In this document: positions 1,712 through 30,122 of the stretch, piece after piece | How the letters are laid out: the number at the start of each line of letters is the position of its first letter | Numbering within the stretch: position 1 is the first letter of the stretch | IMG/VR virus record: IMGVR_UViG_3300017952_000052 | Span: 1 to 33,021 of that record | Source of the DNA: a virus | Strand: one strand, 5' to 3' | DNA: 33,021 nt | Notes under the pieces: generated by a model | Told to the model about the DNA's origin: nothing | Seen by the model: the letters and a program-made list of their open reading frames with translations, nothing else | Databases searched by the model: none | Position numbers and translations under genes: made by a program

Positions 1712-1716
1712 TAGGG

Positions 1717-2544: not shown

Positions 2545-2567
2545 GAATATTTCTCCTTATAGTATCT

Positions 2568-2596: not shown

Positions 2597-2603
2597 CTAA
2601 ATA
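2597..2603 (+). promoter_or_regulatory. T4-late-type promoter CTAAATA for the baseplate cluster
   Basis: CTAAATA followed by ATAACAT lies 18 nt before the ATG at 2622, with an AGGAG ribosome site at 2611-2615. T4 late promoters consist of TATAAATA with transcription starting a few bases downstream; marine relatives use degenerate forms. Two similar elements (AATAAATA) precede other genes in this window at the same distance from the ATG, which supports the call. Confidence 0.6.
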
Positions 2604-2621
2604 ATAACATAGGAGAGAAAT

Positions 2622-11487: not shown

Positions 11488-14400
11488 ATGGCAGCAACTG
11501 ATAGACAAAATAGATTATTACTCGCAGAAGATTGGAAGCGAATTTATCAAAGTTTCCGTAACGCTGATTTCCAGAGTTACGACTTTGACAATCTAAGACG
11601 CACAATGATTAACTATCTGCGTCAAAATTACCCAGAAGATTTTAACGACTATATTGAAAGTTCTGAATATCTTGCATTAATTGATTTAATTGCCTTTCTC
11701 GGGCAGAATATTTCATTTAGAATTGATTTAAACGCAAGAGATAATTTTCTTGAGCTTGCTGAACGTAGAGAAAGTGTTTTACGTCTTGCAAGATTGCTAT
11801 CGTATAATGCTAAAAGAAATCAAGCCAGTAATGGTTTGCTAAAAATACAAAGTGTCCAAACAACAGAATCTGTTGTTGATTCTAACGGGTTTGACCTTTC
11901 TGGACAAACTATAGTATGGAATGATCCTAGCAATTCTAACTGGAATGAACAATTTACCAAAGTGTTAAATGCATCGTTTCCTGTAAATAATCTTTTTGGC
12001 CAGCCAGTTAAAAAAGACGTAGTAAATGGTATTTCAACACAGAAATATAAAATTGCAAGTCGAAACGCAACTCTTCCTGTTTTTAATTTTAGAAGAAGTG
12101 TTCAGGGAGTAACTTATCCCTTTGAAGTAGTTCCAGCTGATATAGTTGACGGTAACATAATTGAAGAATCACCTAGACTAGGGAATCCGTTATCAATTTT
12201 GTATAGGAACGACGGAGCAGGCCCTTCTAGCAGTAACACAGGATTTTTTGCTCATTTCCGTCAAGGAGAGCTAGAGTCAGCTGATTTTGCAATATCAAAT
12301 CCTGCTGCTAATGAAATAATCAGTATTGATACTCCGAACATTAACAATACAGATGTATGGGTATATGAATTAGACAGCAACGGAGCAGAGCAAACAGAAT
12401 GGACTAAGGTAGATTCTACCGAAGGTAATAATATTATCTATAACAGTCTTTCTAAAAATATAAAAAATATATATTCAGTTTTAACAAGAGTAGATGATAG
12501 AGCAAACTTAATTTTTAGTGATGGTGTATTTGGCAATTTGCCTAGAGGCAGATTTAGATCTTATTACAGAGTAAGTGCTAATGCTGCAATAAGGATAAAA
12601 CCTGCAGATATGACAGGAGTGTCTATCAAAATACCATATATCAGCAAAAATAATACAAAAGAAAATTTAACACTTACGTTTGAATTGCGATATACTGTAT
12701 CAAATGGTGCGACTACTGAAACTAATGATAGCATAAAAGTAAATGCGCCAACAACATATTACACACAAAATAGATTAATCACAGCAGAAGATTATAATAT
12801 TGGACCTTTATCGGTAAGCCAAGAAATTATCAAAGTCAAATCTGTAAACAGAACAGCAAGTGGAATAAGTCGGTACTTTGATCTATTAGATGCTACTGGA
12901 AAATATTCTAAAACAAATTTATTTGGAGAAGATGGCATCTTATACAAAGAGTATGTTGAACTTGCAAATAAATTTAGATTTACAACACAAACAGATATTG
13001 AAGGAATTATTGTTAATACTATAGAACCTATCTTAAAAGATAGAAAAATGACCAATTTTTATTATGATAAATTTCCTCCAATTCTAGTAACAGACTTGCA
13101 GGCGTCCTTCTTGCAAGAAACAAAAGACACAAATCGCGCAACAGGAAAATTACAAGATCCTGATGGCACTGACTATCCTGTAGGTACTTTTACTGCTAAT
13201 GCATTTAGATATATAGAAACAGGTGCCCTGCTCAAATTTGTTCCGCCAGCTGGGTATCATTTTATGCCCGACGGAACATTAATGGAAGGACCTGCTGATC
13301 ATAAAGGTTCATTAAATTATAAATGGACAAAGGTAATTGGTGTAAGCAACGACGGAACTGAAAATCTTGCTACAGGCTTAGGACCACTTGTTTTTAATGA
13401 TATTATTCCGTCCGAAGCCATATTAGAACAAATTATACCAAAGTTTACAACTTCGTTGTTAAATGACGTTAAGACACAAATAATTGATCAAGCATTTAAT
13501 TACAATACATTTGGTTTAAGATACGATGTTGCTACACGGGTTTGGAGACTTATTACAGAAACTAATTTAAATCTGTCAGCAGAGTTTTCTACAGGTAAAA
13601 CAGGAGACATAAGTAACCAACAATTAGATGCTAGTTGGTTAGTGTTATTTCAAACCAATGGTGAAAGTTATGATGTAACTAGCAGAGGACTGCGTTACGT
13701 CTACGAAAGCGATGAAGAATTAAAATTCTATTATGATGACTCGGATAAAATTTATGATTCTAAAACTGGAAAAATTATAAAAGATAGAATATCTGTTTTA
13801 AGCATCAATACAAAACCAGACGACACTGCTCCGTTTACAAGAAATTTTGATTGGGAAATATTAAAAGCATATAGAGATAGAGAAGGATACGTTGACAGCA
13901 AAAAAGTTGAAGTAGGATTTTTTGATTCTGATGACGACGGTGTTGTTGATGATCCTGATATTTTTACTGAGATAGTCCAAGAAGATGTAAATCCTAATAG
14001 TAAATTTATATTCCAAGAAAGGTATTTAACCACTGACCAAACAGAAGATTATCGATATATTAGTTCAGACGAAGTTAATATTATTACTTTAGATAGCGAA
14101 ACAGGTATAGGACCGTATAGTTCATACGATAATGGTCAAATATTTTATATAACTTTGTCTAATGTATTTAAAAAGTTAGATACTGTTAATGAAGTTTTAA
14201 CTACTACTAATGATTTTAGAGCTTTTAAAGGTAGATCACAATTACAATTTCAGTATGTTCATGCTGCAGATAGCAATATTAGAATAGATCCAAGTGCTTC
14301 TAACATAATGGATGTGTTTATGTTAACAAAAGGATACGACACAGAGTATCGTTTATGGCTGAATGGAGCACGAGCAACACAACCTAGACCTCCAAGCAGC

Positions 14401-14922
14401 GATCAATTATTTAGAAATTATGCAGCTGACATTAACAAGATTAAATCAATAAGCGATGAAATAATCTATCATCCTGTTAAGTACAAAGTCTTATTTGGAC
14501 CAAAGGCAGAAGAAACCTTGCAAGCAAAATTTAAAATTGTAAAAAATCCAGACTTAGTGTTAGATGACAATGATATTAGAACTAGAGTAATATCAGCTAT
14601 AAATCAGTTTTTTGCATTAGAAAATTGGGAGTTTGGAGAAACTTTTTATTTTACAGAGTTAGCAACATATATAATGAATCAATTAGCACCAGATGTAGTC
14701 ACAGTGGTGCTAGTTCCAGTCCAGCAATCACAAGGATTTGGAAGTTTGTTTGAAATAAAATCTGAAACTGATGAAATTTTTATTAACGGTTCGACAGTTG
14801 ATAATGTTGAAATTATTGATGCTATTACAGCAACACGTCTTAATGCATCAGGAACCGTATTAACAAGCGGAAGCACTAATTCAACTGGTCTTTCAAGTTC
14901 TAGCAACGGAAATAGTTATTAA
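11488..14922 (+). CDS. gp6: Baseplate wedge protein gp6
   Basis: A 1144-residue gp6 family protein. The N-terminal signature is clear: EDWKRIYQSFRNADFQSYDF, then NYPEDFNDYIESSEYLALID, LIAFLGQNISFRIDLNARDN and FLELAERRESVLRLARLLSY (residues about 14-110). The C-terminal third includes KYKVLFGPKAEETLQAKFKI and FALENWEFGETFYFTELATYIMN, the wedge-dimerisation part. gp6 dimers form the iris ring of the T4 baseplate and hold gp25 and gp7. At 1144 residues it is well above T4 gp6 (660), with the extra material in the middle. Residues 813-824 (DSDDDGVVDDPD) form an EF-hand-like calcium loop. It ends in a TAATG overlap with the giant gene. Confidence 0.92.
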   Translation: MAATDRQNRLLLAEDWKRIYQSFRNADFQSYDFDNLRRTMINYLRQNYPEDFNDYIESSEYLALIDLIAFLGQNISFRIDLNARDNFLELAERRESVLRLARLLSYNAKRNQASNGLLKIQSVQTTESVVDSNGFDLSGQTIVWNDPSNSNWNEQFTKVLNASFPVNNLFGQPVKKDVVNGISTQKYKIASRNATLPVFNFRRSVQGVTYPFEVVPADIVDGNIIEESPRLGNPLSILYRNDGAGPSSSNTGFFAHFRQGELESADFAISNPAANEIISIDTPNINNTDVWVYELDSNGAEQTEWTKVDSTEGNNIIYNSLSKNIKNIYSVLTRVDDRANLIFSDGVFGNLPRGRFRSYYRVSANAAIRIKPADMTGVSIKIPYISKNNTKENLTLTFELRYTVSNGATTETNDSIKVNAPTTYYTQNRLITAEDYNIGPLSVSQEIIKVKSVNRTASGISRYFDLLDATGKYSKTNLFGEDGILYKEYVELANKFRFTTQTDIEGIIVNTIEPILKDRKMTNFYYDKFPPILVTDLQASFLQETKDTNRATGKLQDPDGTDYPVGTFTANAFRYIETGALLKFVPPAGYHFMPDGTLMEGPADHKGSLNYKWTKVIGVSNDGTENLATGLGPLVFNDIIPSEAILEQIIPKFTTSLLNDVKTQIIDQAFNYNTFGLRYDVATRVWRLITETNLNLSAEFSTGKTGDISNQQLDASWLVLFQTNGESYDVTSRGLRYVYESDEELKFYYDDSDKIYDSKTGKIIKDRISVLSINTKPDDTAPFTRNFDWEILKAYRDREGYVDSKKVEVGFFDSDDDGVVDDPDIFTEIVQEDVNPNSKFIFQERYLTTDQTEDYRYISSDEVNIITLDSETGIGPYSSYDNGQIFYITLSNVFKKLDTVNEVLTTTNDFRAFKGRSQLQFQYVHAADSNIRIDPSASNIMDVFMLTKGYDTEYRLWLNGARATQPRPPSSDQLFRNYAADINKIKSISDEIIYHPVKYKVLFGPKAEETLQAKFKIVKNPDLVLDDNDIRTRVISAINQFFALENWEFGETFYFTELATYIMNQLAPDVVTVVLVPVQQSQGFGSLFEIKSETDEIFINGSTVDNVEIIDAITATRLNASGTVLTSGSTNSTGLSSSSNGNSY

Positions 14923-17900
14923 TGGCATACGACGATAATCAAAACGAATATCCGCTTCCAGGAGAACGTCCTGATAAAAGAGAATCTGCTGAATTTTTGC
15001 CTAGATATTTTAGGACAGAACCTAATAGGAAGTTTTTAGCAAGTACTATAGACCAACTACTGTCACCAGGAGTAGCAGAAAAACTTAGCGGATATATAGG
15101 CAGACGTCATGCTAGAGCTTTTAAAAATACAGACAATTATATACCTGACTTTAGTACAAATAGAGAAAACTATCAGTTAGAGCCGTCTGTAGTTATAAAA
15201 GACAGTTTAGATAACGTAACATTCTTCAAAGATTATAATGACTATATAAACCAACTCGATAGTTTTGGAGGATCTGTAAAAGATCATAGCAGACTAAATG
15301 CTGGCGAATACTACGCATGGAATCCTAATATTGATTGGGATAAATTTGTAAATTATCGAGAGTATTTTTGGTTACCAACAGGGCCAGATAGTGTCGATGT
15401 TTTCGGGCAAACTAGAGACATAGAAAGCACCTATTCTGTAAGCATAGAGGAAAATAACGATAATACAGTTTATAAATTTTCACCTCCAGGCCTAACGCAG
15501 AATCCGTCACTAACTTTGTATAGAGGAGTAACTTATAGATTTGATATTGATACCCCCGGATTTCCTATAGCATTTGCAACTAGTAGGAAGTTAAATGACA
15601 ATGGTGAATTTACTGCGATTTATAGTGACGGACAAACAAAAATAGAAGAATTAGAAGATGACAACACTCAAGAAGTAGAGTTTGTTGAAAACGGATATAT
15701 TGAATTTACTGTACCTTTAAATGCACCAGATGTATTATATTATGTTAGTAGCACAAATATAGACACTAGTGGTTTAATAAAAGTATATGATTTAGTTGAT
15801 GCTACATTTATAGATGTTGATGAAATAATCGGAAAAAAATCTTATAAAACAGAAGCAGGTTTCGAGTTAAGCAACGGCATGAAAGTTAAATTTAGAGGAA
15901 CAGTTACTCCTGCAAAATATGCCGAGTCTGAGTGGTATGTTGAAGGCGTAGGAGAAAAAATAAAATTTATTGATCAGCAAACATTGATTATTCCTTCTGT
16001 ATACTCTGATGATATACCAGTACCATTTGATTCTAACGAGTTTGATAAACTACCTTTTGCTAACGCTAATTCATATGCAGGCAGTAAGGACTATATTACA
16101 ATTAATCGTGCTAGTAAAGATTTAAATGCATGGACAAGATATAATAGATGGTTTCATAAAAGTGTTATTGAAAAAACTGCTGAAATTAATAATACAGATT
16201 TGTCATTAGATCAAGATACTAGAGCAAAAAGACCTATTATAGAATTTAATGCAGGATTAAAACTTTTCAATTTTGGTAGCGAATCAAAAATTGATGTAGA
16301 TTTAATAGATACATTTACAAGAGACGTATTTTCTGATATTGAAGGCAGCACCGGATATAATATTGATACTGTAGATATCACTGACGGAATGAGAATATTA
16401 TTTACGGCCGACACAGACATCAGAGTAAAAAATAAAATATATCAAGTTGAATTTATTACTCATAATAATATAAGACAAATAGCATTAAGAGAAACCGATG
16501 ATACAGATCCTGTTGTTGGAGAAACCATACTAGTCAAACAAGGGGCAAAAAATTCTGGTAAAATTTGGCATTATACTGGAGGCACTTGGGCAGCTGGTCA
16601 AGAAAAGACAAAAGTAAATCAGCAACCATTATTTGAAATATACGACGAAGAAGGCAATCCGTATTCAGATCAAACCGTATACGATGGCAGTACATTTTTT
16701 GGTAATAAAATTTTTAGTTATAAAATAGGAACAGGTGCAAATGATCCTGAACTAGGATTTCCATTATCATACAGAAGTATACAAAATTCTGGGGATATTG
16801 TTTTTGAATTTAATTTGCTTACAGAATCAATGGAGTACCAAATTGATAATGTCACAGAAACAAAAAATACCGACATTGGTTTTTTACGTAAGTACGATTC
16901 TTTAGATACTTTTACCTATGTAAATGGTTGGTCAAAACCTAAGTTTCACAGCAAACAAAGTATATTAAGACAATACGTTGTTGACAACAATAATTTAGAT
17001 AAATTCAAAATCGACGTTTATAGTAAACCTAATACAATAGATAATTTATGGTTGAGGGTTTACGTAAACAACGAATTGCAAAAAGAAAATGTTGACTATG
17101 TTAGAGAAACAACAGCACTTGATGAAGTATTTGTGCGTTTTAATAATCCCCTTTTAGTTAATGATGTTGTTCTTTTAAAAACAAGAGCAGATGCAGATAA
17201 AACAAGTGAAGGTTATTATGAAATACCCTATAACTTAGAGCGCAATCCACAAAATGAAAATCTGTCTACATTTACTTTAGGTGAAGTAAATGATCATGTA
17301 GATTCTATGATCGAAGAATTAAATAATTTTGAAGGAATATATCCAGGTCCTAGTAATTTGCGAGATTTAGGAAATTTAAATCCTTTCGGAACAAAGTTTT
17401 TAAAGCATTCGCATCCGTTAAATTTAGCAATTTATCATACAACTAACACTGAAGCAAATTTAATAAAAGCTATAAAATATGCTCGATCAGAATACGCAAA
17501 ATTTAAGCGTCAATTTTTACAAGTTGCTTATACATTAGGTTATGACGGACCAGTAAAAGAACACGTTGATAGAATCTTAAAAGAAGTAAACAAAGATAAA
17601 ACAAAAGAATCCCCATTTTACTTTAGTGATATGCTAGCATACACAGCAGCCAAACGCACAATTTTTGAAGTGGAAGATCCTGGTAATGTGTTTTTTGCTC
17701 TTAGTCAACCATTTCTTTTAGATACACTATCGTCAAAAGCAGTAGGTGTATATTTAAACGGAACACAACTAATTTTTGGCAGAGATTATACATTTAATGA
17801 AGAAGGGTTTTGTATTATTACTGCAACAAAACAAAACGGAGATGTCATTGAACTGTATCAATATGAAACATCCGACGGATGTTTTATTCCGCCAACACCA

Positions 17901-20900
17901 ACAAAGTTAGGATTTTATCCTAAATATCGACCAGAAATATATATTGACGATACGTATTTGGAACCTACAAAGGTCATACAGGGTCACGACGGCAGCATAA
18001 CAAAAGCCTATGATGATTTTAGAGATGATTTAATATTAGAATTAGAAAAAAGAATATTCAATAATCTAAAACAAGAATATAGAAAAGATATTTTTGATAT
18101 TCATAAATTGCAAAAAGGTATTTTTAGAGAAACTGGAATTGCTAAAAAAGATATTGATGCTTCGATGATTAGTGATTTTACTCAATGGTTATCAGTAGCA
18201 GGAAATCCTGACTACTCGGATAACTCTACGTGGTTTAACAGTGCTAACACATTTACATTTAATTATAGTTTCACCGAATCCCCAAATAACAAGCCACTTA
18301 AAGGATTCTGGAGATCAGTGTACAGACAGGCGTATGACACAGATCGTCCTCACACACACCCTTGGGAAATGTTAGGATTTACAATCAAACCCGAATGGTG
18401 GGAAGAACAGTACGGGCCGGCTCCTTATACTAGAGACAATTTTGTGTTATGGGAAGATTTGCAAAATGGAGTTGTAAGACAACCAAATGCGCCTATAAAA
18501 ATACTAGACGAGTATAAACGTCCAAGTCTTATGAATCATATTCCAGTCAACGCTGCTGGACAATTAATTAGCCCCTTAGAATCAAATTTAGCACAGGGCC
18601 ATGTTCCTGTTCTTGCAAGAACACAATTTGCGTACGGCGATGAAGCTCCAGTTGAAACAGCCTGGCGTAGAAGTTCAGAATATCCATTTGCTCTGTTAAC
18701 AGCATTTTCTTTAAATAAGCCTGCTGAGACAATTGGTGTTGGATTTGATTTATCTAGATTGTATAGAAATTTAGCAGGACAAATAGTTTATAGAGAAAGC
18801 CAAAAACCGATAGACATAAAGAATATAGTTTTTCCAAACTCAATTCAAGATACGTCAAGAGTATTAACAAGTGGTTTGGTTAATTATATGTCAAATTATT
18901 TGGCTAGCGACATTACTATCAGTTATCAAAAATATAAAGATGATTTAAAAGCTATTAACAATCAGCTTTCCTACAAGTTAGGTGGCTTTACTGAAAAACA
19001 AAAATTTCAATTGTTATTAGATAGTAGATCTCCAACTAATCAAAGCAATGTATTTGTGCCGCAAGAAAATTATAAAATATTTTTAAATAAAAGTAGTGCT
19101 GTACAAACTGTAAATTACTCCGGCGTAATAGTAGAAAAGGCACCTTCTGGATATTCTGTAAGAGGTTATGATTCTTTAAATCCAGTGTTTTCGTATTACC
19201 CTGCTATAGAAAAAACAAGCGACAGAGCAATTACAATCGGAGGAATTTCTGAGCCTTTCCTAGACTGGGCAACCGGACAACAATATCTTAAAGGTCAAAA
19301 TATTAGATACGAAAATACATTCTATAGAACAATAAATTCTCATAGATCAACAAATGTATTTGATAATAATAACTTCGAAATTATATCACAACTACCTATT
19401 CAAGGAGGTGCAACTGCTTTTATTAGGAAAAATTTTGAAACTGAAATTAGTCAACTACCATATGGAACAGTATTGCGCGACTTACAAGAAGTGGTTGATT
19501 TTTTACTAGGTTACGGAGTTTATCTAGACAGTATCGGATTCAAATTTGAATATTACGACAATGACCAACGAGCAATTCAAAATTTCCAGCAAAGTATAAA
19601 AGAATTTTTATTTTGGACTACACAAAACTGGCAAGACGGCTCTATTTTAACTATAAGTCCCGGTGCAAATAGAATAAAATTTGAAACTGAATATGCAGTT
19701 GTAGATGACCTATTCAGCACATTTTATCCTTATTCTATTTTAAGAGCAGATGCTAATAAAATAGATCCAGAGTTTGTTGATGTTTTTAGAGACGGCAACA
19801 AGTGCGAAATATCATTGAAAAATACTAACAGCGGATTGTATAATATAAGACTTAATCTTGTACAAACTGAACACGTTGTTCTTTTAGATAACACCACAGT
19901 TTTTAATGATGTAATTTATGACTTAGCTCCTGGATATAGACAAGAAAGAATTAAAGTAGTCGGATATCGATCAGACAACTGGCAAGGAAGTTTAAGTGTT
20001 CCTGGATTTATATATGATGCAGCAGAAACTACTGAATGGCTGCCTTATACAGATTATCAATTAGGGCAGATCGTAAAATACAAAGAGTTTTTCTATAGCG
20101 CAAATACTGTAGTAGAAGGCTCAGCAACTTTTAATTCAAAAGAATGGGTGCGTTTGTCAGAAAAACCAGAAGCTACATTGCTTACAAATTTGGATTATAA
20201 GGCATCGCAGTTTGCAGATTTTTATGACCTTGACACAGACAATTTTGATACAGAACAACAAAAACTAGCTCAACATCTTATAGGTTATCAAAAACGCCAG
20301 TATCTAGCAAATATAATAAATGATGATGTTAGTCAGTATAAATTTTATCAAGGATTTATTCAAGATAAAGGAACACAAAATTCTTTGTCTAAATTATTTG
20401 ATGCTCTAGCTAGTGCTGATAAAGAAAGTTTAGATTTTTACGAAGAATGGGCAATACGTTTAGGACAGTACGGAGCAGCAGACGGATTTGACGAAATTGA
20501 ATATATTTTAGATGAAAGCAAGTTTAAATTATCTCCTCAACCGGTAGAGTTAGTACAATCTATACCGTCAAACACTAGAGATGATATTTATAGAATAAAA
20601 CCTTACGAAGTTTACCTAGCACCAGAAAACTACGATCACTCGCCTTTTCCTACTAAAGCTAGCACTTTTACGGAACAAATTAAAACAGCAGGTTATGTTA
20701 ATCCTGATGATGTTGATTATTCTTTTGTACAAAAAAGTTTTATCACATCAACGGGAGTAATACCAAGCGGAGAATATGCATGGATAGCTCAAGAAGGCGA
20801 CTCTTGGACTGTATTTAAATCTACGTCAATTGACAATTTTGTTACGACTGCAACGGTAACTGTTGATACAGGTAACACAGTAGAACTAACCCTAGCAAAA

Positions 20901-23900
20901 GCAGTTAACAATGCTATTAAGCCGGGAGATATTATCGGTATATTAGATATTGAAAATCTCGAAGGGTACCATGTTGTTCAGTCCGTCGGCGCGAATACAT
21001 TAATTTTACCAAAGCCGAACGCATTTATTAATCCTGTTGAAAACGGCAATGGAATTCTAACAACATTTGATACAGTGCGATTCAGTAATTTTATTGAACT
21101 AAATGAGTATGCGCAAAAGTCTTTAGAAAATTTTGATATTGCATGGATAGACAATGACGGCTCTGACAATTGGAGTGTTTATAAAAATACCAAAGTATAT
21201 GACGTACATAATTTAATAGAAAATCCTCAAGGTAATACTGATTCCACAAGAGATTACTTTGGATCAGCAATGTCAGTTAATGACAATAACACAATTCTAG
21301 CTATAGGTTCACCTGACTATTTTGCTCAAGGTGCAGTAGACGATGTAAGAATATCTCAAAATTCTGGCTACGATGCGAATAGAACTCCAGGAACATATAC
21401 TGATTTAGAGTTATTTAATTATACTGGCACAGGAACAGGAGCTCGATTTACTGTAGTAATTGACGGATTAGGTAATGCAACAATATCTGTAACCAATCCA
21501 GGAGTTGGATATACAGGCGGCGAAGAAGTAAGCATTAATGTAACCGATATTGGCGGAACTGGCAGCGATTTAAAATTCTTTATAGTAACTAACAAAGGCG
21601 GAGTTGTTAATGTTTATACTAGAGGAAACGAAAGCGGAAATTACAGACTTTTGCAAACTATTGCACCAGATACTAATATTTTAGCTGATATTACAGAACC
21701 TACTAGATTTGGAGCCAGTGTTGCAGTTTCTGGCGATGGAAAATATTTAGCAGTCGGCTCCCCTAACGCAAGTCGAGTACTTACAAGATATAGAGGCGAG
21801 TTTGATCCTAACATTGATTACGAAAAAAATCAAATAGTATCTTATAACGAAAGTTTGTGGCAAGCAAGAAAACAAGTTTTAGGTTCTGAAGACAATATAC
21901 TTTACACAAGTTTTGATGCTTATAGTTTTATAGCAGAACAGTCAGATAGTACAGATATAAAATTACTTCTTACAGGAAATAATAGATTTAATGGAACTTC
22001 TATAGATCATCTGCTTATACGAGCACCAAAAGATCAATACGAAGGTACAGAAATAGGAGACACTATAGTTTTAAAATGGAACAATTATAGTGTTGCAAAT
22101 TTAGCTAATCCTGTAACATCTGTAGAACCTTTCCTAGGAACTTATTCTCCAGCAATAACCACTAGCACTTTAACAGGTAATCACATCATTCAAAAGAAAA
22201 TTGATCATGTTTTTAATGTTGAAAATTACACAGTGCTTCCAGAAATTGGAGATATAATTAAAACTGCAACAGCAAGTGGCAAAGTAGAATATCTTTATAA
22301 TGATGTTGCAACTAGAGAAGCTGTAATATACCTTAGCGAAACAAATGGTATATTTTTACAAACTGATGATATATTTTTAGATGAAGATGTTCTTATAGGT
22401 ACCTATGCAGAAGATAACTTTAATAATATTGATGTTCTGGGCGGATACTGGTTAATTAATACAACCTCATATCTTGTAAATTCAAGTAATTCTACTGATA
22501 CTGGGCGCGGATTAATATTTAGAGATGTACTAAATTTACGCGGCGATGACGGTGATCCTGCTACACCAGATGGCAGAACGATACCTTACTATTACTATAA
22601 TATACAAGATAACATTCAAGAGATAACTTACGTAAACGAAAATGATCGTGTAAGTTTCTTAACTCATTTATCCTATACTGGTATATTTGACACTACTATA
22701 GAAGAACGACCTTCACCTTGGTGGGTAGTACGTACCCCTATTGAATTATCTAATAATCTAAATGCTGGAGATCAATTTAAATTTTATGTCGACACCTTAG
22801 GTAGCATAGATTTAACTGGTACTGGTTTATCATCTGAACTACTCAACAACACACATACTATTGTTGAAGAATGGGACGGATATATTGACATGGAGTTTAC
22901 AGAATTCCAAACAGTAGATCTAGAGCCGGATGGCAACTTAGGAGATCCAATTGAACCAACACCTAAGTACGAATTTGATCAAGACGGCAATTTAATTACT
23001 AGAGGTCCAGGTCTTTATAGTACTGTTAGAGACTTAGTAACAGGAGCAACTGCTGAAGTAATGTTCTACCAACGTCAATTCAATAATGTTAGACTATATG
23101 TATCTAATGTAACAGGAAATTGGCTTTCAGGTAGCAGATTCGGAGAAACAGCAGCAATTGAAAGAGTGGGGTCTCCTAGCAGAACAATGGGAGAAGTGTT
23201 AGAAACTTCGTTAGGATCAGCTGAAGTAGGAAAATTATTTTTAATTTCTGAAGGTGTTACTTCAACTGGTGTGGGTACAGATTTAAGTACAGGAAACGAC
23301 TTCGACGCGACAACTAACACATTGGATCTAGAGCCACAACAAAGAGATATAGAATATTGGTTCTATGAAGAAGAAAATATACTTGGTGTACCTAGGGTTC
23401 CTAGTTATCCTGATAGTAGAAACAACGAATGGAATCAAATTTTTAATTTGCCGGCTAGTGAGTTTGGGGTAGATAGTACATTTACTAACGAAGGATTATT
23501 TTCTATCTATGAAAAAGCGCCGCTCGGCGAATATCAGTTGATAAATTATTTTACACTTCCAGACAGAGGATCAGAAAGAAAACTAGGATATAAATTAAAA
23601 TTTGCAAAAAACAATAATTTGTATTCATTGTTTGTTGCTGAAGAAGGAAATGAAACTGTAAACAATAACGGTAAAATTTATATTATCAAGAAAGGTTCTG
23701 ATGGAGTATTTGAATACGATTGGGAAATTGGAAAAGATAGAAATTATAGAGGAGAGTTCGATAACACTAGCGATTACTCAGCTGGAGAACTTGTAATTTT
23801 TAATGATACACTATATCAGGCAGTTACAAATTTAGCAGCTGGAGAATTTTTACTTTCAAATTGGACCGAATATTCAGATAATATTTCGAGATTAGGATTT

Positions 23901-26900
23901 ATACCAAGTAGTGCTTCCTTAAAACTACCAGCTGAATCAATTTTTGATCCTCACAGCGATGGATTAGAAACAGGCATCTTAAAGTTTGCTAGAGATTTTT
24001 CCGTTTCGTCAAACGGTGGTGTTGTTGCTGTATCAGCAAGCCTTGTGGGATCTGACAGTACATCTAATAATGCCATAGCAATCTACAGACGCATTAACGG
24101 AAATTATCAGTTTGTCCAAGAAATTTACGGAGAAGACGATATATCAGGATTTGGTATATCGATAGATTTAAGCGACGACGGAAATTATCTAGCTATAGGC
24201 GAAAATTTAGCCGACGATAATAAAATTAATCAAGGAAAGGTATACATTTATCAACTGCAAAATCAGCAGTTTACTTTAGTGCAAACACTTTCTAGTGCTA
24301 ATAACGAAACAAATGAAAAATTTGGATCAAAGGTAGCGTTCGACGGCCAAGTTTTAGCTGTAACAGGATTACAATCTGATGCTGTAAATCCAACTACGTT
24401 TGATATTTACAGTCAAAGAAATATTAATTCTAGTTCTTTGTATAACAGTAAGTATGCAACTGATAGAGAATCTCCGCTATCTCCAGCAAGGACTACTATA
24501 GACGGAAATCATACTATATTTACTACGCGAACAGAAGATACCGGCGTTGTTTATATGTTTGAAAATATAAACGGTTCTTTTGTTTATTCAGAATCACTTA
24601 GCTATCAAGATGAAGATTATTTCTATTTAGGAGAAAATTTAAACCTTAAGAAAAATCATGTATACGTAGCTACTCCTAGAGTAACAAAAGAAGACCACCA
24701 AGGAACAATTTTAGAATATAGAAAGCCAAACGGAACTAATGCTTGGAATGTATTAAGACAACCAGTTCCAGTAGTTAATGTTGATAAGTTTAGAGGTGCT
24801 TACATTTATAATATAAAAACCAATAAAATTATTGATTATATAGATATTCTAGATCCGGTGCAAGGAAAAATTGCAGGACCAGCTGAAGCAGAAATTAGTT
24901 ACAAAACATTATACGATCCTGCACTTTACAATGTAATTAATGAAGACTTCCAAGAGCAAAATACTTCAGCATGGGGCGAAAATGCTACTGGAAAAATATG
25001 GTGGAATCTTAGAAATGTAAGATTTTATAATACATACCAAGCAGATACAATTTTCCAAACAAATTTTTGGAATACAATTTTTCCTGGAACAAGCATTGAA
25101 ATATACGAATGGACTGAAAGTACATATTCTCCTAGCGAATGGGATAGTTTAAGTGGTACAGCCGAAGGCGAAGTTTTAGGAATAACTGGTACTACAAGGT
25201 ATGGAGACAGATTTTACACTCAAAAACAAAAATACGACCCAGTGGCGCAAAGATTTACTAATGTATTTTATTATTGGGTAAGAAATAAAAGGACTGTGCC
25301 ACTACTAGAGGACAGAAATTTAAGTGCAGACGATATTAGAGCACTTATTGAAAATCCATTCCAAGAAGGTTATAAATTTGCTGCGCTACTTAGCAATAAT
25401 AAATTTGCATTATATAATTGCAATTTAGATGTTGAAGATAAGGATGTTGCAATCAATTTTAGTTATTGGACAATTGAGAATCAAGAACAAAATATTCATA
25501 CAGAATATCAATTAATGACCGAAGGATTAGAGACTAGTTTACCAAAAACTGATATTGAAACTAAATGGTTTGATAGTTTAATTGGCTACGACGAATATCA
25601 AAGACCTGTACCCGATCCAGAATTAAGCGATAAACAAAAATACGGAACATTGTTTAAACCAAGACAAAGTTGGTTTAAAAATCAGCCAGAAGCATTAAAA
25701 CAGGTTATAGATAGAATTAACTCTGTAGCAAAAACTGTTGTATTGTCTGATCTTGCAGATTTCAGTGTTTTAAACGAAAAAGATCCCTTACCAAACATTA
25801 ATTCTAATTTGTACGATAATGCTGTCGATACATATGCTGACATTGAATTTATAGGAACAGCAAAAGTTGTTCAAGCAGAGCTAACTCCTTTAATTGTTGA
25901 TGGCGAAATAGTACAAGTTGAAATTACAAATCCAGGTAGAGGGTACATACAACCACCTTCTTATAAAATAGTTGGAGAAGGCTCCGGCGCTGATCTTCGA
26001 ATCGACATAGATGCCTTAGGTAAAGTTTCTAATGTAACTGTACTGCGCGGCGGAAAAAATTACACAGAATCTACAACTATCAAAACAAGAAAGTTTAGTG
26101 TACTAGTTCGTGCTGATGAAAATGCAACAGGCAGATGGACAATAAACGAATTTGATTCTGTAGAAAAAGTCTGGAGTAGGATAACTACACAGGCTTATGA
26201 TGTATCTAAATTTTGGCAATACGTTGATTGGTATGCACCAGACTATAATGAATTTTCGGGTATAGATGAAATTATTGATGCTACTTACGAATTGTCATCA
26301 TTAGAATTAGATTTAGGCTCTATTGTTAAAATAAATTCAGTTGGTTCTGGTGGATGGTTATTATTAGAAAAAATTGCAGATGTAGACACAGAAGATTACA
26401 CAATTAATTACAGAACAATCGGAAGAGAAAATGGAACTATAGAATTTTTGTCAAGTTTATATGATGCTGTTGCTAATAGAACAGGATTTGACACTACTAG
26501 TTTTGATGCAAGATATTACGATATTCAACCCATAATCGAAACAAGAAAAATATTACAAACTATTAGGGATGATATTTTTGTCGATGAGTTGCGAGTAGAA
26601 TATAATAAATTATTTTTTGCTAGCTTGCGATATGTTTTTGCAGAACAAAATTACGTTGACTGGGCGTTTAAAACAAGTTTTGTTAAGAGTAAGCACAACG
26701 TTGGAGAGTTAGAGCAAAGACTAACATTTAACAATGATAATTTAGAAAATTACCAAGAATATGTAAATGAGGTCAAACCTTTTAAAACAAAAATTAGAGA
26801 GTATATTAGCGGATACGACAAAATAGAACCAACTAATTCAGTAACTACTGATTTTGACTTGCCTGCTTCTTATAGTTCAATTACAAAACAAATTGTACCT

Positions 26901-29900
26901 GAGTCTGCAAAAACAACAACAACAGGTATAACAGGCATCAGTGAAGAGATGCAACAGTATCCAAAGAAGCATTGGTTAGATAATGTAGGATTTAGCGTTA
27001 CAGAAGTTAATATAGCAGAGCCTGGCTCAGGCTTTTTACAAGAACCAGTTATTTCTTTAGTTGGCGGCGGCGGCTCTGGGGCAACTGCAAAAGCATACAT
27101 AGGCGATGGAAAGATTACTCGCATTCAAGTTTTATCAGAGGGCTCTGGATACATAACTGCACCTCAAGTAGTAATTAATGGATCTCAAGAGGACGGTAGT
27201 GTTGAAGCACGAGCATCTGCTGTTTTAGGAAATACAAAAGTACGAGGAGTTCATATACGATCAAAATTTGATAGAGTAAGTGGTAATTTTTACATAACAA
27301 ATCTAGCTCAAACAGAAAACTTTGTAGGAACTGGTGCTGACCTAAAATTTACTTTAAAATGGCCTATAGATTTAAAATCAACAAGGACGGTTGTTTCTAT
27401 AGACGGCATAGAATCTTTAAGAAGCCAATACATAGTATCTAATGTTGATGACAATTCAAAATCATATTCACGTAAACTTGGCCGCATTGAATTTATAGAT
27501 CCTCCCACTTCTGGCACAGATATTAAAATTGAATACTTTTATGATATAAATCTTCTCAATGCCCAAGACAGAATCAATTTTTTCTATGATCCAACAACTG
27601 GAATGATAGGCAAAGATGTTGCGCAACTAATGGACGGAATTGATTACGGAGGCGTTGAAGTCAAAAGTTTACAATTTGATGCTCCTGCAGGATGGGATAC
27701 AAACGAATGGTTTGCATCCACTTGGGATACCTACGACAACACATTTGAAGACGAAATATTTAGAACAGACAGTTCAACTTTAACAATAGAATTACAACAG
27801 CCTTTAGAAGTAGATATAGTATATAATATTTACAAAAACGGTGTGCGTATAGATGATCCGAATTTTGGTACCGGCAATCCGATTACAAATCCAAACGCAA
27901 TAGTTCAGAGTATTACTGGTGCTGGCGAAACAGAAATAGATGTGTCTGAAAGCGGCTTAAATATTCCTCTTATTGACGGCGATGTTTTAATAGTTAGAAA
28001 AACCACCTCAGACGGTAGTTTCCTACCTGACCCGCTTGCTTATGACACTCAGTTAACTGGAGGAGATTTACAATATAACACAGCAAAAGGTATTAATGCA
28101 GAAGAGATTAATATAGACGGCGACGGATTTGTAACACCTACTACTTCAAAAGGTCCTGAAGAATTAGTTCCAGGGCAACTAGTGGACACATTAGATATTC
28201 GAGTATATCATAGAGTAGGTGACGGTGCAAGCACAATATATAGTCAAAACTATATTACTGACGGTACGACAGCAGTATACGATTTAGGTGTTAAACCAAA
28301 CACAAATCAAGCAGTGTTTGTAAGACTAGACAAAGTAAATCTTGACGAAACAGCATATACACTAGATGTTACTAACAATACTGTTACTTTTTCAACTGTT
28401 CCAACTGCTGGCAGTGAATTGAATATTCTTACAATGGGAATTTCCGGAGAACAAATATTAGACATAGACGAATTTGTAGCAGACGGAACTTCTATTATAT
28501 ACGAATTAGATATTCCTTATCAAACAGGCTCAACACATTACGTACAAGCCAATAGAGAATCAGTAGACGTAATTGTTTTTGAAACTGAAAATAATAAATT
28601 TGGACTTAACTTTACTATAGCACCTGTTGCAGGAACAGTTATATCTTACGGAATATTTTATGCATCTGGTACAAATTATAGCCATGTTAAAAGGGATACA
28701 TTCTATGCTGACGGTTCTACATTAGCATTCCAATTATCAAACATTCCATTTAATGCTCCTCCAGTAACGCATAAAGCTATTGTTACAGTAGGAGATAAAA
28801 TTTTAAATCCTGGATATAATCAAAGGTTTGAAGTAACTAGCACTAGAGAATATCAATTGCAATTATTCCAGCAGCCTAATGTATCATTACTTCCTGATCA
28901 AATAGATGTTTATTTAAATGGGTTAAAATTAGAACAAACAATTAGTTATAGATATGATATCTTTAATACAAGTGTTGTGCTCTTTAGTGGTGTAGGAACA
29001 ACAGGCGATGTACTAGAGGTTTTTGTTAACGACGACGGCGAGTACACTTTTGATACCGAAACTAATGAATTGATAATTGACACTAGTGTTGCAATGCCTA
29101 TAGATACAAAAGTAGAAGTATTGCAGTTCAGTAATCACGATATACAAGATATGACTAGAATAAATTATGACGTTGTTAACCGCACAACCTTAAGCAGTGG
29201 AACATCGGAATATGTAGAGTATCATAATTTAACAACGGGTTTAATCAAATTAAGAGGTCAAGCACTAGATGCTCAGTATGTATGGGTCGCTGTAAATGGC
29301 AACCAGTTGATACCAAGCGTAGACTACTATGTAACCGATGATAGATATTATATTCAAATTGTACAAACGTTGAGCGAAAATGATGTAATTGATATTGTGC
29401 ATTTTAGAGCATCTTTATTGAATGAAAGATTTGGATTTAGACAATTCAAAGATATGTTAAATAGAACACATTACAAGAGATTAAATGACACATATACTTT
29501 TGAATTAGCTCAAGATTTAAATTGGTATGATTTAAGAGTAGAAGTAGTAGACGGTAGCAATTTAACCGAACCTAATAAATTAAAAAATATGCCTGGTGTA
29601 CTGTTTATAGACGGAGAAAGAATAGAATACTTTGTTAAAGAAGGAAATACTTTAAGACAACTTAGAAGAGGAACACTAGGGACAGGAGTTAAGCAAGTGT
29701 ATACTGCCGGTACAAGGATTTTTGATCAGAGTGCGAAAGAAACTATTCCTTATAAGGACGAGCTAATATCAACAGTATTAACTCCTGACGGTAGCACTGG
29801 TAATTTTGAATTAGACTTTACTCCTAGTTCTGCAGACGATTTTGAAGTATTTGCTGGTGGAAAACGTCTACGTAAAAATGTAATTGATGTTTTTGATCCA

Positions 29901-30122
29901 ACAATAGATCAAGATTCACCTGAAGCAGATGTAGAAGCGGAAGCAGAGTTTAATGTTACGGATAATATACTAACATTAAATTATGTACCTTCTATAAACG
30001 AAAAAATTATAGTTGTAAGAAAGCAAGGAAAAGTTTGGAATCCAACTGGAACTTCGTTAACTGAAGCTGAAAATGACATTGCAAGATTCTTGCGTGACGC
30101 AACAGTTGACTTACCAGAATAA
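14922..30122 (+). CDS. Giant modular virion/baseplate structural protein (5066 residues)
   Basis: One uninterrupted 15.2-kb frame, 46% of the window, coupled to gp6 by TAATG. No whole-length T4 counterpart; by position it stands where gp7-gp11 are in T4. The first ~160 residues (LPRYFRTEPNRKFLASTIDQL, AWNPNIDWDKFVNYREYFWLPTG in pieces) are the likely baseplate anchor, typical of marine T4-like giant proteins. Then: a cupredoxin-like strand set (193-285; LTLYRGVTYRFDID); a conserved block at about 1006-1183 (GHDGS, RPHTHPWEMLGF, EWWEEQYGPAPYT); four sugar-binding-like modules (1446, 1705, 2289, 2941); seven FG-GAP-like propeller blades (2110-3285) with inserts; GxGY modules (2157, 3645, 4024); repeated DGST-type beta modules (4132-4980); and a RIEYF/LRRGTLGTG module (about 4890-4935). 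I count only four cysteines. Probably a long host-contacting baseplate or fibre-like element; role inferred. Confidence 0.8.
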   Translation: MAYDDNQNEYPLPGERPDKRESAEFLPRYFRTEPNRKFLASTIDQLLSPGVAEKLSGYIGRRHARAFKNTDNYIPDFSTNRENYQLEPSVVIKDSLDNVTFFKDYNDYINQLDSFGGSVKDHSRLNAGEYYAWNPNIDWDKFVNYREYFWLPTGPDSVDVFGQTRDIESTYSVSIEENNDNTVYKFSPPGLTQNPSLTLYRGVTYRFDIDTPGFPIAFATSRKLNDNGEFTAIYSDGQTKIEELEDDNTQEVEFVENGYIEFTVPLNAPDVLYYVSSTNIDTSGLIKVYDLVDATFIDVDEIIGKKSYKTEAGFELSNGMKVKFRGTVTPAKYAESEWYVEGVGEKIKFIDQQTLIIPSVYSDDIPVPFDSNEFDKLPFANANSYAGSKDYITINRASKDLNAWTRYNRWFHKSVIEKTAEINNTDLSLDQDTRAKRPIIEFNAGLKLFNFGSESKIDVDLIDTFTRDVFSDIEGSTGYNIDTVDITDGMRILFTADTDIRVKNKIYQVEFITHNNIRQIALRETDDTDPVVGETILVKQGAKNSGKIWHYTGGTWAAGQEKTKVNQQPLFEIYDEEGNPYSDQTVYDGSTFFGNKIFSYKIGTGANDPELGFPLSYRSIQNSGDIVFEFNLLTESMEYQIDNVTETKNTDIGFLRKYDSLDTFTYVNGWSKPKFHSKQSILRQYVVDNNNLDKFKIDVYSKPNTIDNLWLRVYVNNELQKENVDYVRETTALDEVFVRFNNPLLVNDVVLLKTRADADKTSEGYYEIPYNLERNPQNENLSTFTLGEVNDHVDSMIEELNNFEGIYPGPSNLRDLGNLNPFGTKFLKHSHPLNLAIYHTTNTEANLIKAIKYARSEYAKFKRQFLQVAYTLGYDGPVKEHVDRILKEVNKDKTKESPFYFSDMLAYTAAKRTIFEVEDPGNVFFALSQPFLLDTLSSKAVGVYLNGTQLIFGRDYTFNEEGFCIITATKQNGDVIELYQYETSDGCFIPPTPTKLGFYPKYRPEIYIDDTYLEPTKVIQGHDGSITKAYDDFRDDLILELEKRIFNNLKQEYRKDIFDIHKLQKGIFRETGIAKKDIDASMISDFTQWLSVAGNPDYSDNSTWFNSANTFTFNYSFTESPNNKPLKGFWRSVYRQAYDTDRPHTHPWEMLGFTIKPEWWEEQYGPAPYTRDNFVLWEDLQNGVVRQPNAPIKILDEYKRPSLMNHIPVNAAGQLISPLESNLAQGHVPVLARTQFAYGDEAPVETAWRRSSEYPFALLTAFSLNKPAETIGVGFDLSRLYRNLAGQIVYRESQKPIDIKNIVFPNSIQDTSRVLTSGLVNYMSNYLASDITISYQKYKDDLKAINNQLSYKLGGFTEKQKFQLLLDSRSPTNQSNVFVPQENYKIFLNKSSAVQTVNYSGVIVEKAPSGYSVRGYDSLNPVFSYYPAIEKTSDRAITIGGISEPFLDWATGQQYLKGQNIRYENTFYRTINSHRSTNVFDNNNFEIISQLPIQGGATAFIRKNFETEISQLPYGTVLRDLQEVVDFLLGYGVYLDSIGFKFEYYDNDQRAIQNFQQSIKEFLFWTTQNWQDGSILTISPGANRIKFETEYAVVDDLFSTFYPYSILRADANKIDPEFVDVFRDGNKCEISLKNTNSGLYNIRLNLVQTEHVVLLDNTTVFNDVIYDLAPGYRQERIKVVGYRSDNWQGSLSVPGFIYDAAETTEWLPYTDYQLGQIVKYKEFFYSANTVVEGSATFNSKEWVRLSEKPEATLLTNLDYKASQFADFYDLDTDNFDTEQQKLAQHLIGYQKRQYLANIINDDVSQYKFYQGFIQDKGTQNSLSKLFDALASADKESLDFYEEWAIRLGQYGAADGFDEIEYILDESKFKLSPQPVELVQSIPSNTRDDIYRIKPYEVYLAPENYDHSPFPTKASTFTEQIKTAGYVNPDDVDYSFVQKSFITSTGVIPSGEYAWIAQEGDSWTVFKSTSIDNFVTTATVTVDTGNTVELTLAKAVNNAIKPGDIIGILDIENLEGYHVVQSVGANTLILPKPNAFINPVENGNGILTTFDTVRFSNFIELNEYAQKSLENFDIAWIDNDGSDNWSVYKNTKVYDVHNLIENPQGNTDSTRDYFGSAMSVNDNNTILAIGSPDYFAQGAVDDVRISQNSGYDANRTPGTYTDLELFNYTGTGTGARFTVVIDGLGNATISVTNPGVGYTGGEEVSINVTDIGGTGSDLKFFIVTNKGGVVNVYTRGNESGNYRLLQTIAPDTNILADITEPTRFGASVAVSGDGKYLAVGSPNASRVLTRYRGEFDPNIDYEKNQIVSYNESLWQARKQVLGSEDNILYTSFDAYSFIAEQSDSTDIKLLLTGNNRFNGTSIDHLLIRAPKDQYEGTEIGDTIVLKWNNYSVANLANPVTSVEPFLGTYSPAITTSTLTGNHIIQKKIDHVFNVENYTVLPEIGDIIKTATASGKVEYLYNDVATREAVIYLSETNGIFLQTDDIFLDEDVLIGTYAEDNFNNIDVLGGYWLINTTSYLVNSSNSTDTGRGLIFRDVLNLRGDDGDPATPDGRTIPYYYYNIQDNIQEITYVNENDRVSFLTHLSYTGIFDTTIEERPSPWWVVRTPIELSNNLNAGDQFKFYVDTLGSIDLTGTGLSSELLNNTHTIVEEWDGYIDMEFTEFQTVDLEPDGNLGDPIEPTPKYEFDQDGNLITRGPGLYSTVRDLVTGATAEVMFYQRQFNNVRLYVSNVTGNWLSGSRFGETAAIERVGSPSRTMGEVLETSLGSAEVGKLFLISEGVTSTGVGTDLSTGNDFDATTNTLDLEPQQRDIEYWFYEEENILGVPRVPSYPDSRNNEWNQIFNLPASEFGVDSTFTNEGLFSIYEKAPLGEYQLINYFTLPDRGSERKLGYKLKFAKNNNLYSLFVAEEGNETVNNNGKIYIIKKGSDGVFEYDWEIGKDRNYRGEFDNTSDYSAGELVIFNDTLYQAVTNLAAGEFLLSNWTEYSDNISRLGFIPSSASLKLPAESIFDPHSDGLETGILKFARDFSVSSNGGVVAVSASLVGSDSTSNNAIAIYRRINGNYQFVQEIYGEDDISGFGISIDLSDDGNYLAIGENLADDNKINQGKVYIYQLQNQQFTLVQTLSSANNETNEKFGSKVAFDGQVLAVTGLQSDAVNPTTFDIYSQRNINSSSLYNSKYATDRESPLSPARTTIDGNHTIFTTRTEDTGVVYMFENINGSFVYSESLSYQDEDYFYLGENLNLKKNHVYVATPRVTKEDHQGTILEYRKPNGTNAWNVLRQPVPVVNVDKFRGAYIYNIKTNKIIDYIDILDPVQGKIAGPAEAEISYKTLYDPALYNVINEDFQEQNTSAWGENATGKIWWNLRNVRFYNTYQADTIFQTNFWNTIFPGTSIEIYEWTESTYSPSEWDSLSGTAEGEVLGITGTTRYGDRFYTQKQKYDPVAQRFTNVFYYWVRNKRTVPLLEDRNLSADDIRALIENPFQEGYKFAALLSNNKFALYNCNLDVEDKDVAINFSYWTIENQEQNIHTEYQLMTEGLETSLPKTDIETKWFDSLIGYDEYQRPVPDPELSDKQKYGTLFKPRQSWFKNQPEALKQVIDRINSVAKTVVLSDLADFSVLNEKDPLPNINSNLYDNAVDTYADIEFIGTAKVVQAELTPLIVDGEIVQVEITNPGRGYIQPPSYKIVGEGSGADLRIDIDALGKVSNVTVLRGGKNYTESTTIKTRKFSVLVRADENATGRWTINEFDSVEKVWSRITTQAYDVSKFWQYVDWYAPDYNEFSGIDEIIDATYELSSLELDLGSIVKINSVGSGGWLLLEKIADVDTEDYTINYRTIGRENGTIEFLSSLYDAVANRTGFDTTSFDARYYDIQPIIETRKILQTIRDDIFVDELRVEYNKLFFASLRYVFAEQNYVDWAFKTSFVKSKHNVGELEQRLTFNNDNLENYQEYVNEVKPFKTKIREYISGYDKIEPTNSVTTDFDLPASYSSITKQIVPESAKTTTTGITGISEEMQQYPKKHWLDNVGFSVTEVNIAEPGSGFLQEPVISLVGGGGSGATAKAYIGDGKITRIQVLSEGSGYITAPQVVINGSQEDGSVEARASAVLGNTKVRGVHIRSKFDRVSGNFYITNLAQTENFVGTGADLKFTLKWPIDLKSTRTVVSIDGIESLRSQYIVSNVDDNSKSYSRKLGRIEFIDPPTSGTDIKIEYFYDINLLNAQDRINFFYDPTTGMIGKDVAQLMDGIDYGGVEVKSLQFDAPAGWDTNEWFASTWDTYDNTFEDEIFRTDSSTLTIELQQPLEVDIVYNIYKNGVRIDDPNFGTGNPITNPNAIVQSITGAGETEIDVSESGLNIPLIDGDVLIVRKTTSDGSFLPDPLAYDTQLTGGDLQYNTAKGINAEEINIDGDGFVTPTTSKGPEELVPGQLVDTLDIRVYHRVGDGASTIYSQNYITDGTTAVYDLGVKPNTNQAVFVRLDKVNLDETAYTLDVTNNTVTFSTVPTAGSELNILTMGISGEQILDIDEFVADGTSIIYELDIPYQTGSTHYVQANRESVDVIVFETENNKFGLNFTIAPVAGTVISYGIFYASGTNYSHVKRDTFYADGSTLAFQLSNIPFNAPPVTHKAIVTVGDKILNPGYNQRFEVTSTREYQLQLFQQPNVSLLPDQIDVYLNGLKLEQTISYRYDIFNTSVVLFSGVGTTGDVLEVFVNDDGEYTFDTETNELIIDTSVAMPIDTKVEVLQFSNHDIQDMTRINYDVVNRTTLSSGTSEYVEYHNLTTGLIKLRGQALDAQYVWVAVNGNQLIPSVDYYVTDDRYYIQIVQTLSENDVIDIVHFRASLLNERFGFRQFKDMLNRTHYKRLNDTYTFELAQDLNWYDLRVEVVDGSNLTEPNKLKNMPGVLFIDGERIEYFVKEGNTLRQLRRGTLGTGVKQVYTAGTRIFDQSAKETIPYKDELISTVLTPDGSTGNFELDFTPSSADDFEVFAGGKRLRKNVIDVFDPTIDQDSPEADVEAEAEFNVTDNILTLNYVPSINEKIIVVRKQGKVWNPTGTSLTEAENDIARFLRDATVDLPE
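19257..19397 (+). repeat. Sugar-binding-like (CBM5/12-like) module 1 of the giant protein
   Basis: Residues 1446-1492: FLDWATGQQYLKGQNIRY, then ENTFYRTINSH and a closing NNFEIISQLP. The 'W-x-Y-x-x-G-x-x-V-x-Y-x-x-x-x-Y-x-A ... F-x-x-W' pattern resembles CBM5/12-type chitin-binding modules. Assignment by eye. Confidence 0.45.
20034..20168 (+). repeat. Sugar-binding-like (CBM5/12-like) module 2 of the giant protein
   Basis: Residues 1705-1749: EWLPYTDYQLGQIVKYKEFF, YSANTVVEGSATFNSKEWV. This is the copy closest to the canonical pattern, with W1706, the D-Y-x-x-G-Q-I-V-K-Y strand, F-Y-x-A and the closing W. Confidence 0.5.
21390..21595 (+). repeat. GxGY module 1 of the giant protein
   Basis: Residues about 2157-2225: YTDLELFNYTGTGTGARFTV, ATISVTNPGVGYTGGEEVSI and NVTDIGGTGSDLKF. 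This is the 'GTGA ... V-x-V-x-x-x-GxGYTxGD ... IGGTGSG' repeat common in phage structural proteins. It lies inside propeller blade 1. Confidence 0.6.
21786..21944 (+). repeat. Sugar-binding-like (CBM5/12-like) module 3 of the giant protein
   Basis: Residues about 2289-2341: RYRGEFDPNIDYEKNQIVSY, NESLWQARKQ. It shares YRGEFD, DY, a V-x-Y/F strand and an L-W/Y-Q-A strand with module 4, so these two are clearly paralogous. It opens the long insertion in blade 2. Confidence 0.5.
23742..23879 (+). repeat. Sugar-binding-like (CBM5/12-like) module 4 of the giant protein
   Basis: Residues 2941-2986: NYRGEFDNTSDYSAGELVIF, NDTLYQAVTN, LLSNWTEYSD. Contains the full pattern including the closing W. It lies between propeller blades 3 and 4. 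Confidence 0.5.
25855..26085 (+). repeat. GxGY module 2 of the giant protein
   Basis: Residues about 3645-3722: VQVEITNPGRGYIQPPSYKI, VGEGSGADLRIDID, GKVSNVTVLRGGKNYTES. Two successive G-x-G/N-Y turns, as in module 3. Confidence 0.6.
26993..27235 (+). repeat. GxGY module 3 of the giant protein
   Basis: Residues about 4024-4105: NIAEPGSGFLQEPVISLVGG, GGSGATAKAYIGDGKITRIQ, VLSEGSGYITAPQVVINGS. It aligns turn for turn with module 2, including the 'P-x-x-x-x-G-G-S-G-A' centre. Confidence 0.6.
28240..29060 (+). repeat. Tandem DGST-type beta modules near the C-terminus of the giant protein
   Basis: Three consecutive modules begin YITDGTTAVYDL (residue about 4441), FVADGTSIIYEL (about 4516) and FYADGSTLAFQL (about 4592). 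Each continues into a 'VxVNGxxLxxxxxY' strand and ends with 'P-x-x-G-x-x-I-x-I'. More diverged copies occur at about 4132 (VGTGADLKFTL) and 4949 (LTPDGSTGNFEL). Confidence 0.6.

Follow-up and report, generated by a model that had tools for sequence, protein, structure and literature searches.

In phage T4, the genes for gp7 to gp12 follow gp6 as separate genes, an arrangement stated in the original prediction and confirmed here. In the viral DNA that we analysed (hereafter the window, i.e. the complete IMG/VR record of 33,021 bases), a single 15.2-kb open reading frame stands directly behind gp6 instead. This raises the question of whether one polypeptide combines wedge anchoring, outer arm and adhesion, as had been proposed for this locus, and of which parts such a polypeptide is built.

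An intact giant frame next to gp6

The frame is on the plus strand, starts with ATG, runs uninterrupted through 5066 codons and overlaps gp6 by one base (TAATG, 14920-14924), all as originally described; this overlap suggests that the two genes are probably translationally coupled. In 20 base-shuffled versions of the window the longest open run was 133 codons, codon-position GC (~0.45/0.36/0.20) is uniform from one end of the frame to the other, and single uninterrupted frames of 4,896-5,343 aa begin at the same place in 18 relatives, all on other IMG/VR contigs and read to their stop codons. The giant gene is therefore not an assembly artefact, and its 5066 aa are typical for the lineage; read-through, considered as another origin of the frame, is ruled out by the shuffles and by the relatives' intact frames. 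The gene fills 46% of the window, which agrees with the predicted "almost half", but since the window is one whole fragment this share says nothing about the genome of the virus. Phage records contain no DNA nearly identical to the window.

The giant gene comes immediately after the gp6 gene of a gp53-gp5-gp25-gp6 cluster, an adjacency seen in 112 of 117 loci. The order of sigma factor, gp47 and gp46 genes in divergent orientation, followed by gp53-gp5-gp25-gp6-giant, is common to the window, PA5oct and CBB. In Salicola phage SCTP-2 the giant gene is found without an adjacent gp6, which is located ~90 kb away in the record. The statement that the giant gene ends directly before a fibre-type gene was wrong, as a PHROG 11259 gene intervenes and the Collar gene comes second (Table 1).

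Some further observations concern these neighbourhoods. The divergent gp46, gp47 and late sigma factor-like genes occupy positions 1-2544 (minus strand) of the window and are arranged as in PA5oct and CBB. A 517-aa gene at 9411-10964, with gp5 on one side and gp25 on the other, matches the end of PHROG 1259 (hub subunit and tail lysozyme) with its last 100 residues and is, judged by this match, a separate cell-wall-enzyme-like gene. In SCTP-2 (L084:10612-19902), a second very large gene of 3096 aa precedes the giant gene in place of gp6.

Table 1. Features of the giant gene and its neighbourhood; residues refer to the giant protein, positions to the window.
Feature	Residues	Position	Strand	Basis
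gp53-like wedge gene (PHROG 7145, baseplate wedge subunit)		3416..3718	+	PHROG; CBB Phage_gp53 at same place
gp25-like wedge gene		10983..11423	+	PHROG 261/43
gp6 baseplate wedge gene, 1144 aa, one-base overlap with giant gene		11488..14922	+	PHROG 10646, PHROG 219
Giant gene, 5066 aa (PHROG 10938, virion structural protein)		14922..30122	+	ORF call, PHROG scan
Conserved block A	1-~1940	14922..20741	+	alignment identity, border mapping
Beta module	171-291	15432..15794	+	C-terminal part of PHROG 677, E 2e-9
CBM5/12-like module (ChiA1 chitin-binding type), putative	~1446-1490	19257..19391	+	1ed7 profile match
Most conserved stretch, motif FYQGFIQDKGT	1741-1860	20142..20501	+	identity 0.72-0.74
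Variable slot	~1941-3285	20742..24776	+	length spread, low identity
FG-GAP beta-propeller	~2112-3275	21255..24746	+	Pfam PF14312, blade HMM, AlphaFold/Foldseek
CBM5/12 motif	2294-2315	21801..21866	+	PF02839 30.8-35 bits, cut-off 26.2
Nested other domains, ~590 aa in blade 2	2300-2888	21819..23585	+	blade-hit gap, model
Second CBM-like stretch in slot	~2940-2980	23739..23861	+	profile match to 8fqc, 9rkv
Conserved block B	3286-~3990	24777..26891	+	alignment, border mapping
GxGY module	4025-4103	26994..27230	+	PHROG 701 E 3.8e-22; tblastn
Repeated beta modules, T7 tail-fibre N-domain/DUF2460-like	4447-5066	28260..30119	+	Pfam, relatives
201-aa gene (PHROG 11259), next after giant gene		30145..30750	+	PHROG
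Tail fibre/collar-type gene, second after giant gene		30760..32793	+	Pfam Collar E 1.3e-15

Relatives in jumbo phages and cyanophages

The giant protein belongs to PHROG 10938, a family of 3324 positions annotated as "virion structural protein" (best E 2.6e-192 in the PHROG scan, with further matches along the chain at E 6.9e-81, 1.9e-77 and 1.3e-18). Homologues were found by tblastn in 87 phage records; the phages listed are mostly jumbo phages of ~280-490 kb, among them Atu_ph07, Phosso, PA5oct and its relatives, SCTP-2, CBB, GAP32, RaK2 and the Escherichia group of phAPEC6, and 94-95% of residues 1-1600 are covered in Phosso and Atu_ph07. The closest counterparts of the window's gp6 come from the same jumbo phages, and at least 300 related stretches are present in IMG/VR. 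By these sequence comparisons the setting is a jumbo-phage lineage (relatives of Rak2, PA5oct and Atu_ph07) and not an ordinary T4-like phage.

Two homologues have been detected in virions by mass spectrometry, namely CBB_236 (21 peptides, 7.72% coverage; PMC5259590) and phAPEC6 gp245 of 381.88 kDa (17 peptides, 7.6%; PMC7247149), and PA5oct gp355 is marked ESI-MS/MS in its database record. From these virion homologues it follows that the giant protein is a structural protein. This part of the original prediction is thus borne out at the family level, and absence from virions, the outcome that it had set against itself, is contradicted for the family by the mass spectrometry. The PHROG 10938 giants (CBB_236, phAPEC6 gp245, PA5oct gp355, Atu_ph07 AUZ94962 and XacN1 ORF325) have blocks A and B in common with the window protein, and those of the jumbo phages likewise take their place after gp6. 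The isolates examined differ in being shorter (3,138-4,555 aa) and in having a slot of ~150-450 aa, or, in Atu_ph07 and Phosso, one of ~1,480 aa with other modules, whereas the proteins of the window and its close relatives reach 4.9-5.3 kaa and contain nested modules besides an integrin-like propeller.

Giant structural genes had also been anticipated at this place in marine T4-like phages, and they do occur in cyanophages: P-HM1 gp7 has 4446 aa, the S-B05 "baseplate wedge initiator" 4024 aa and the ACG-2014d protein 6817 aa (PHROG 2885/701). As in the window, these proteins are encoded directly after gp6 and contain GxGY modules. They are annotated as gp7, "baseplate wedge initiator" or structural protein, and their N-terminal part is recognisably akin to the core of T4 gp7 (E 2e-6), whereas no such core was detected in the window protein. 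The blade HMM found no FG-GAP propeller in the three cyanophage giants examined.

Several members of the family deviate in length or annotation. The homologous gene of XacN1 encodes 3,313 aa. In one IMG/VR relative (L013:10001-21043) the giant protein stops at 3680 aa and has lost most of its C-terminal region; this form may be genuinely short or may result from a frameshift or a faulty assembly. In MH494197.1 (phage CMSTMSU) and OR699182.1 (SD-6_S16), one match to the giant protein and/or gp6 spans several annotated hypothetical proteins, probably owing to sequencing frameshifts.

Two conserved blocks and a variable slot

In an alignment of 27 full-length members the giant protein is composed, in this order, of conserved block A, a poorly conserved slot, conserved block B and a C-terminal repeat region. 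Identity in block A is mostly 0.4-0.7 to the marine-type relatives (a label taken over from an earlier observation and not from sample habitats) and 0.2-0.5 to the jumbo isolates; in the slot it is 0.01-0.37, compared with 0.4-0.7 in the blocks. Searches of PDB sequences with profiles of residues 1-320, of block B and of the C-terminus gave no informative relatives, block B yielding one weak match to a tailspike. Similarly, an AlphaFold model of residues 780-1960 (pLDDT 77) had no significant counterpart among solved structures, and its top matches in a viral structure library were homologues or unnamed viral proteins. The viral-library fold search also returned the 750-aa BFVD entry A0A2Z5HGI1 (TM 0.76 by its own length), which might be a minimal form of the giant protein. 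Within block A, residues ~1446-1490 resemble chitin-binding domains in profile (1ed7, E 0.019) and in fold (probability 0.99-1.00 at E ~0.5-0.9), with a Pfam score of 14.4 bits, below the cut-off. Towards the C-terminus, the GxGY module is common to cyanophage structural proteins including P-HM1 gp7, and among 25 relatives the terminal region matches the T7 tail-fibre N-terminal domain in five and DUF2460 in eight.

The length of the slot, measured by mapping the block borders, ranges from 149 to 1481 aa in the family and is 1346 aa in the window. It amounts to 149-155 aa in Rak2-like phages, 258 in PA5oct, 448 in SCTP-2, 573-578 in two relatives (one of them a 270-kb contig), 584-1040 in four more distant IMG/VR relatives, 661 in L063, 819 in L095, 1176-1464 in the other marine-type relatives and 1474-1481 in Phosso and Atu_ph07. 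Because all these lengths lie between the same mapped borders, the slot is one fixed site with changing content.

In the window this content is a propeller. PF14312 (FG-GAP_2) scores 36.3 bits against a cut-off of 23, the blade HMM places blades at residues 2111, 2261, 2889, 3020, 3075 and 3132, and a seventh was recognised by reading at ~3236. FG-GAP was found by Pfam in 34 of 34 marine-type slot sequences and CBM_5_12 in 27 of them. Relatives with shorter slots have closely spaced blades, and no blades were detected by the HMM in CBB, RaK2-type phages, PA5oct, Atu_ph07 and Phosso. Residues 2108-3305 were modelled with AlphaFold at a mean pLDDT of 76.8, poorly so for the first 118 residues; among solved structures the model matches integrin alpha heads best (Foldseek E 4.5e-8, probability 1.00), while its whole-model TM to integrin alpha is low because of the nested domains. 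The ~590 aa nested in blade 2 are modelled mostly as confidently folded beta domains. The PF02839 match at residues 2294-2315 spans a short part of the Pfam model, and the second CBM-like stretch of the slot resembles 8fqc and 9rkv, two solved phage tail spike/fibre chains. With integrin alpha the slot shares the propeller fold and the FG-GAP blade motif; it differs in being inserted in a phage baseplate-region protein and in being split by nested domains, and no DxDxDG calcium loops were seen on reading the slot propeller. As modelled, the likeness is one of fold and not of pathway.

The slot of Atu_ph07 (L082:25074-29519) contains, in place of a propeller, the cyanophage-giant modules PHROG 701, 19630, 2885 and 708, an indication that giants of the two kinds have exchanged modules. 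Proteins of diverse roles contain FG-GAP propellers or CBM5/12 folds, which counts against an adhesive reading. To judge from the slot's sequence and modelled fold, its cassette is probably used to grip host cells.

The gp7 place and the role of the giant protein

T4 gp7 likewise follows gp6 and is, as the giant protein would be, a partner of gp6, but it has only 1032 aa, with gp8 and gp10 encoded separately, and no significant match to the giant protein in sequence or in fold (the latter for residues 780-1960). Indeed, profile comparisons of all parts of the giant protein with T4 gp7-gp12 gave nothing significant, in a test of low power in which, by single-sequence comparison, even the window's gp6 reached only E 0.05 against T4 gp6. 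A KGT motif (residues 1811-1834) aligns in the same register with T4 and cyanophage gp7 at E 0.011-0.2 when small profiles are used; this match near residue 1811 is absent with deeper, merged profiles. The fold search with residues 780-1960, the one piece so compared, had no gp7 among its best PDB matches. Conversely, no gene of the gp7 families PHROG 964 and 17744 was found in Atu_ph07, PA5oct, SCTP-2, CBB or the 270-kb relative, although as controls T4 scored with both families and the cyanophages with 17744, so that among the complete relatives the giant gene stands alone as a candidate for gp7, the window itself being a genome fragment. Families of gp8 and gp11 had no match in complete Atu_ph07, PA5oct, SCTP-2 and CBB, where the T4 control scored, and the gp9/10 N-terminal family gave only short-piece matches in two relatives. 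Separate gp7 or gp8 homologues elsewhere, which the original prediction had named as evidence against itself, were thus not encountered in these relatives. That the giant protein occupies the place of gp7 is well supported; that it is homologous with gp7 is, from the sequence comparisons, unproven.

With some preference, we regard the giant protein as the baseplate-wedge scaffold of a jumbo myovirus, with an exchangeable adhesion cassette in its slot, a reading whose virion evidence comes from homologues and not from the window's phage. It would fill the place of gp7 and be co-translated with gp6; blocks A and B would dock on gp6, gp25 and gp53 and thereby form each wedge and its outward arm, and the fibre-type modules at the C-terminus may hold fibres or neighbouring wedges. 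The cassette would be displayed at the baseplate rim, where it could bind glycans or proteins of the host surface and so make attachment by the fibres more avid or more specific ahead of sheath contraction. Of the combined role originally proposed, a virion protein of the baseplate region encoded after gp6 stands, given the homologues in virions, and adhesion is plausible in view of the integrin-alpha-like propeller and the CBM5/12-type modules, while the combined gp7/gp8/gp10 content found no significant profile match in the low-power test. A wider proposal, which we hold tentatively and rate a little short of probable, is that the jumbo lineage concentrates baseplate scaffold and host recognition in one chain of 5,000 residues, with the integrin-alpha-like propeller as a host-binding head of a contractile tail. 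The chain would comprise a fixed wedge frame and a single cassette slot with interchangeable contents, which range from next to nothing through a simple propeller to a propeller with nested modules of glycan-binding type or to modules of cyanophage type.

The giant protein could instead be an adhesion arm attached to the baseplate or tail (a whisker, side fibre or decoration of the rim) whose gene just happens to stand behind gp6, with another, unrecognised protein as wedge initiator. Its beta-rich modular build with CBM- and propeller-type modules and fibre-type C-terminal modules would suit such an arm, as would the missing gp7 signal, the separation of the SCTP-2 giant from gp6 and the unusual whiskers and fibres of Rak2-like virions (PMC5259590, PMC7247149). 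However, it is blocks A and B, and not the adhesion-type slot, that have stayed conserved even between very distant phages, as is typical of a scaffold; complete relatives offer no other gp7 candidate, and cyanophages carry a giant gp7 at the same place, so that we consider an arm of this kind quite unlikely. The fusion of T4-type gp7, gp8 and gp10 suggested earlier agrees with the genome position and with the lack of separate gp8 or gp11 in complete relatives, and the C-terminal repeats are weakly gp10-like (E 0.004, uncorrected for 33 windows and 7 proteins). Yet apart from this weak gp10 likeness no T4 gp8-gp12 module stood clearly above shuffled controls, no match to any of gp7-gp12 was significant, the architecture of conserved blocks, slot and T7-fibre-like repeats departs from the T4 order, and the giant gp7 of P-HM1 still has a separate gp8 after it; such a fusion appears very improbable.

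The slot, for its part, may have grown neutrally by domain insertion and serve as a structural spacer or rim-to-rim contact and not in host recognition. Rak2-like phages manage with ~150 aa, and propellers are common scaffolds of protein-protein interaction. The CBM5/12-type motifs in 27 of 34 slots and the high divergence between relatives fit a host-facing element better, and we therefore think a mere spacer somewhat unlikely.

Giant virion proteins at this place are already known from jumbo phages and cyanophages and have hardly been studied. New are the anatomy of the giant protein, the propeller-bearing nested form in a large uncultured lineage and the single-slot design, which we did not find described in a literature search covering few subscription journals; FG-GAP was likewise absent from the papers listed there on baseplates. 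Jumbo phages are widespread, and yet "virion structural protein" is all that the annotation says of the clade's largest protein in the baseplate region. Its anatomy (conserved frame, one variable slot, borders) makes it testable: fragments for expression follow from the borders, Rak2-like phages with their ~150-aa slot show the scaffold at its minimum, and surfaces that are possibly bound can be predicted from the slot contents. If the propeller binds hosts, it would give these uncultured phages a receptor-binding unit separate from the tail fibres and help host prediction from metagenomes.

Two minor observations may be added. The 270-kb relative (L092, G001:C1:206942) and another relative (L090, G002:C1:23813) have further open frames of 3103 and 4724 aa, respectively; since these carry the T4 gp9/10 N-terminal motif, more than one giant structural gene is present in these phages. 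Concerning expression, the T4-type late promoter TATAAATA was rejected as an operon marker, the window being depleted of it (1 seen against 6.35 expected). TAAATA occurs upstream of the window's gene starts at 2622, 10983 (TAAATAC at 10973) and 11488, and at the giant gene's stop codon at 30120, which opens this motif in 17 of 18 relatives. Across the related stretches L004-L081, 175 of 608 TAAATA lie at most 60 nt upstream of gene starts, regions that make up 1.7% of the sequence, in a count that includes relatives repeatedly and is uncorrected for AT-rich intergenic composition. On the strength of this distribution, TAAATA is possibly the core of the lineage's late promoter.
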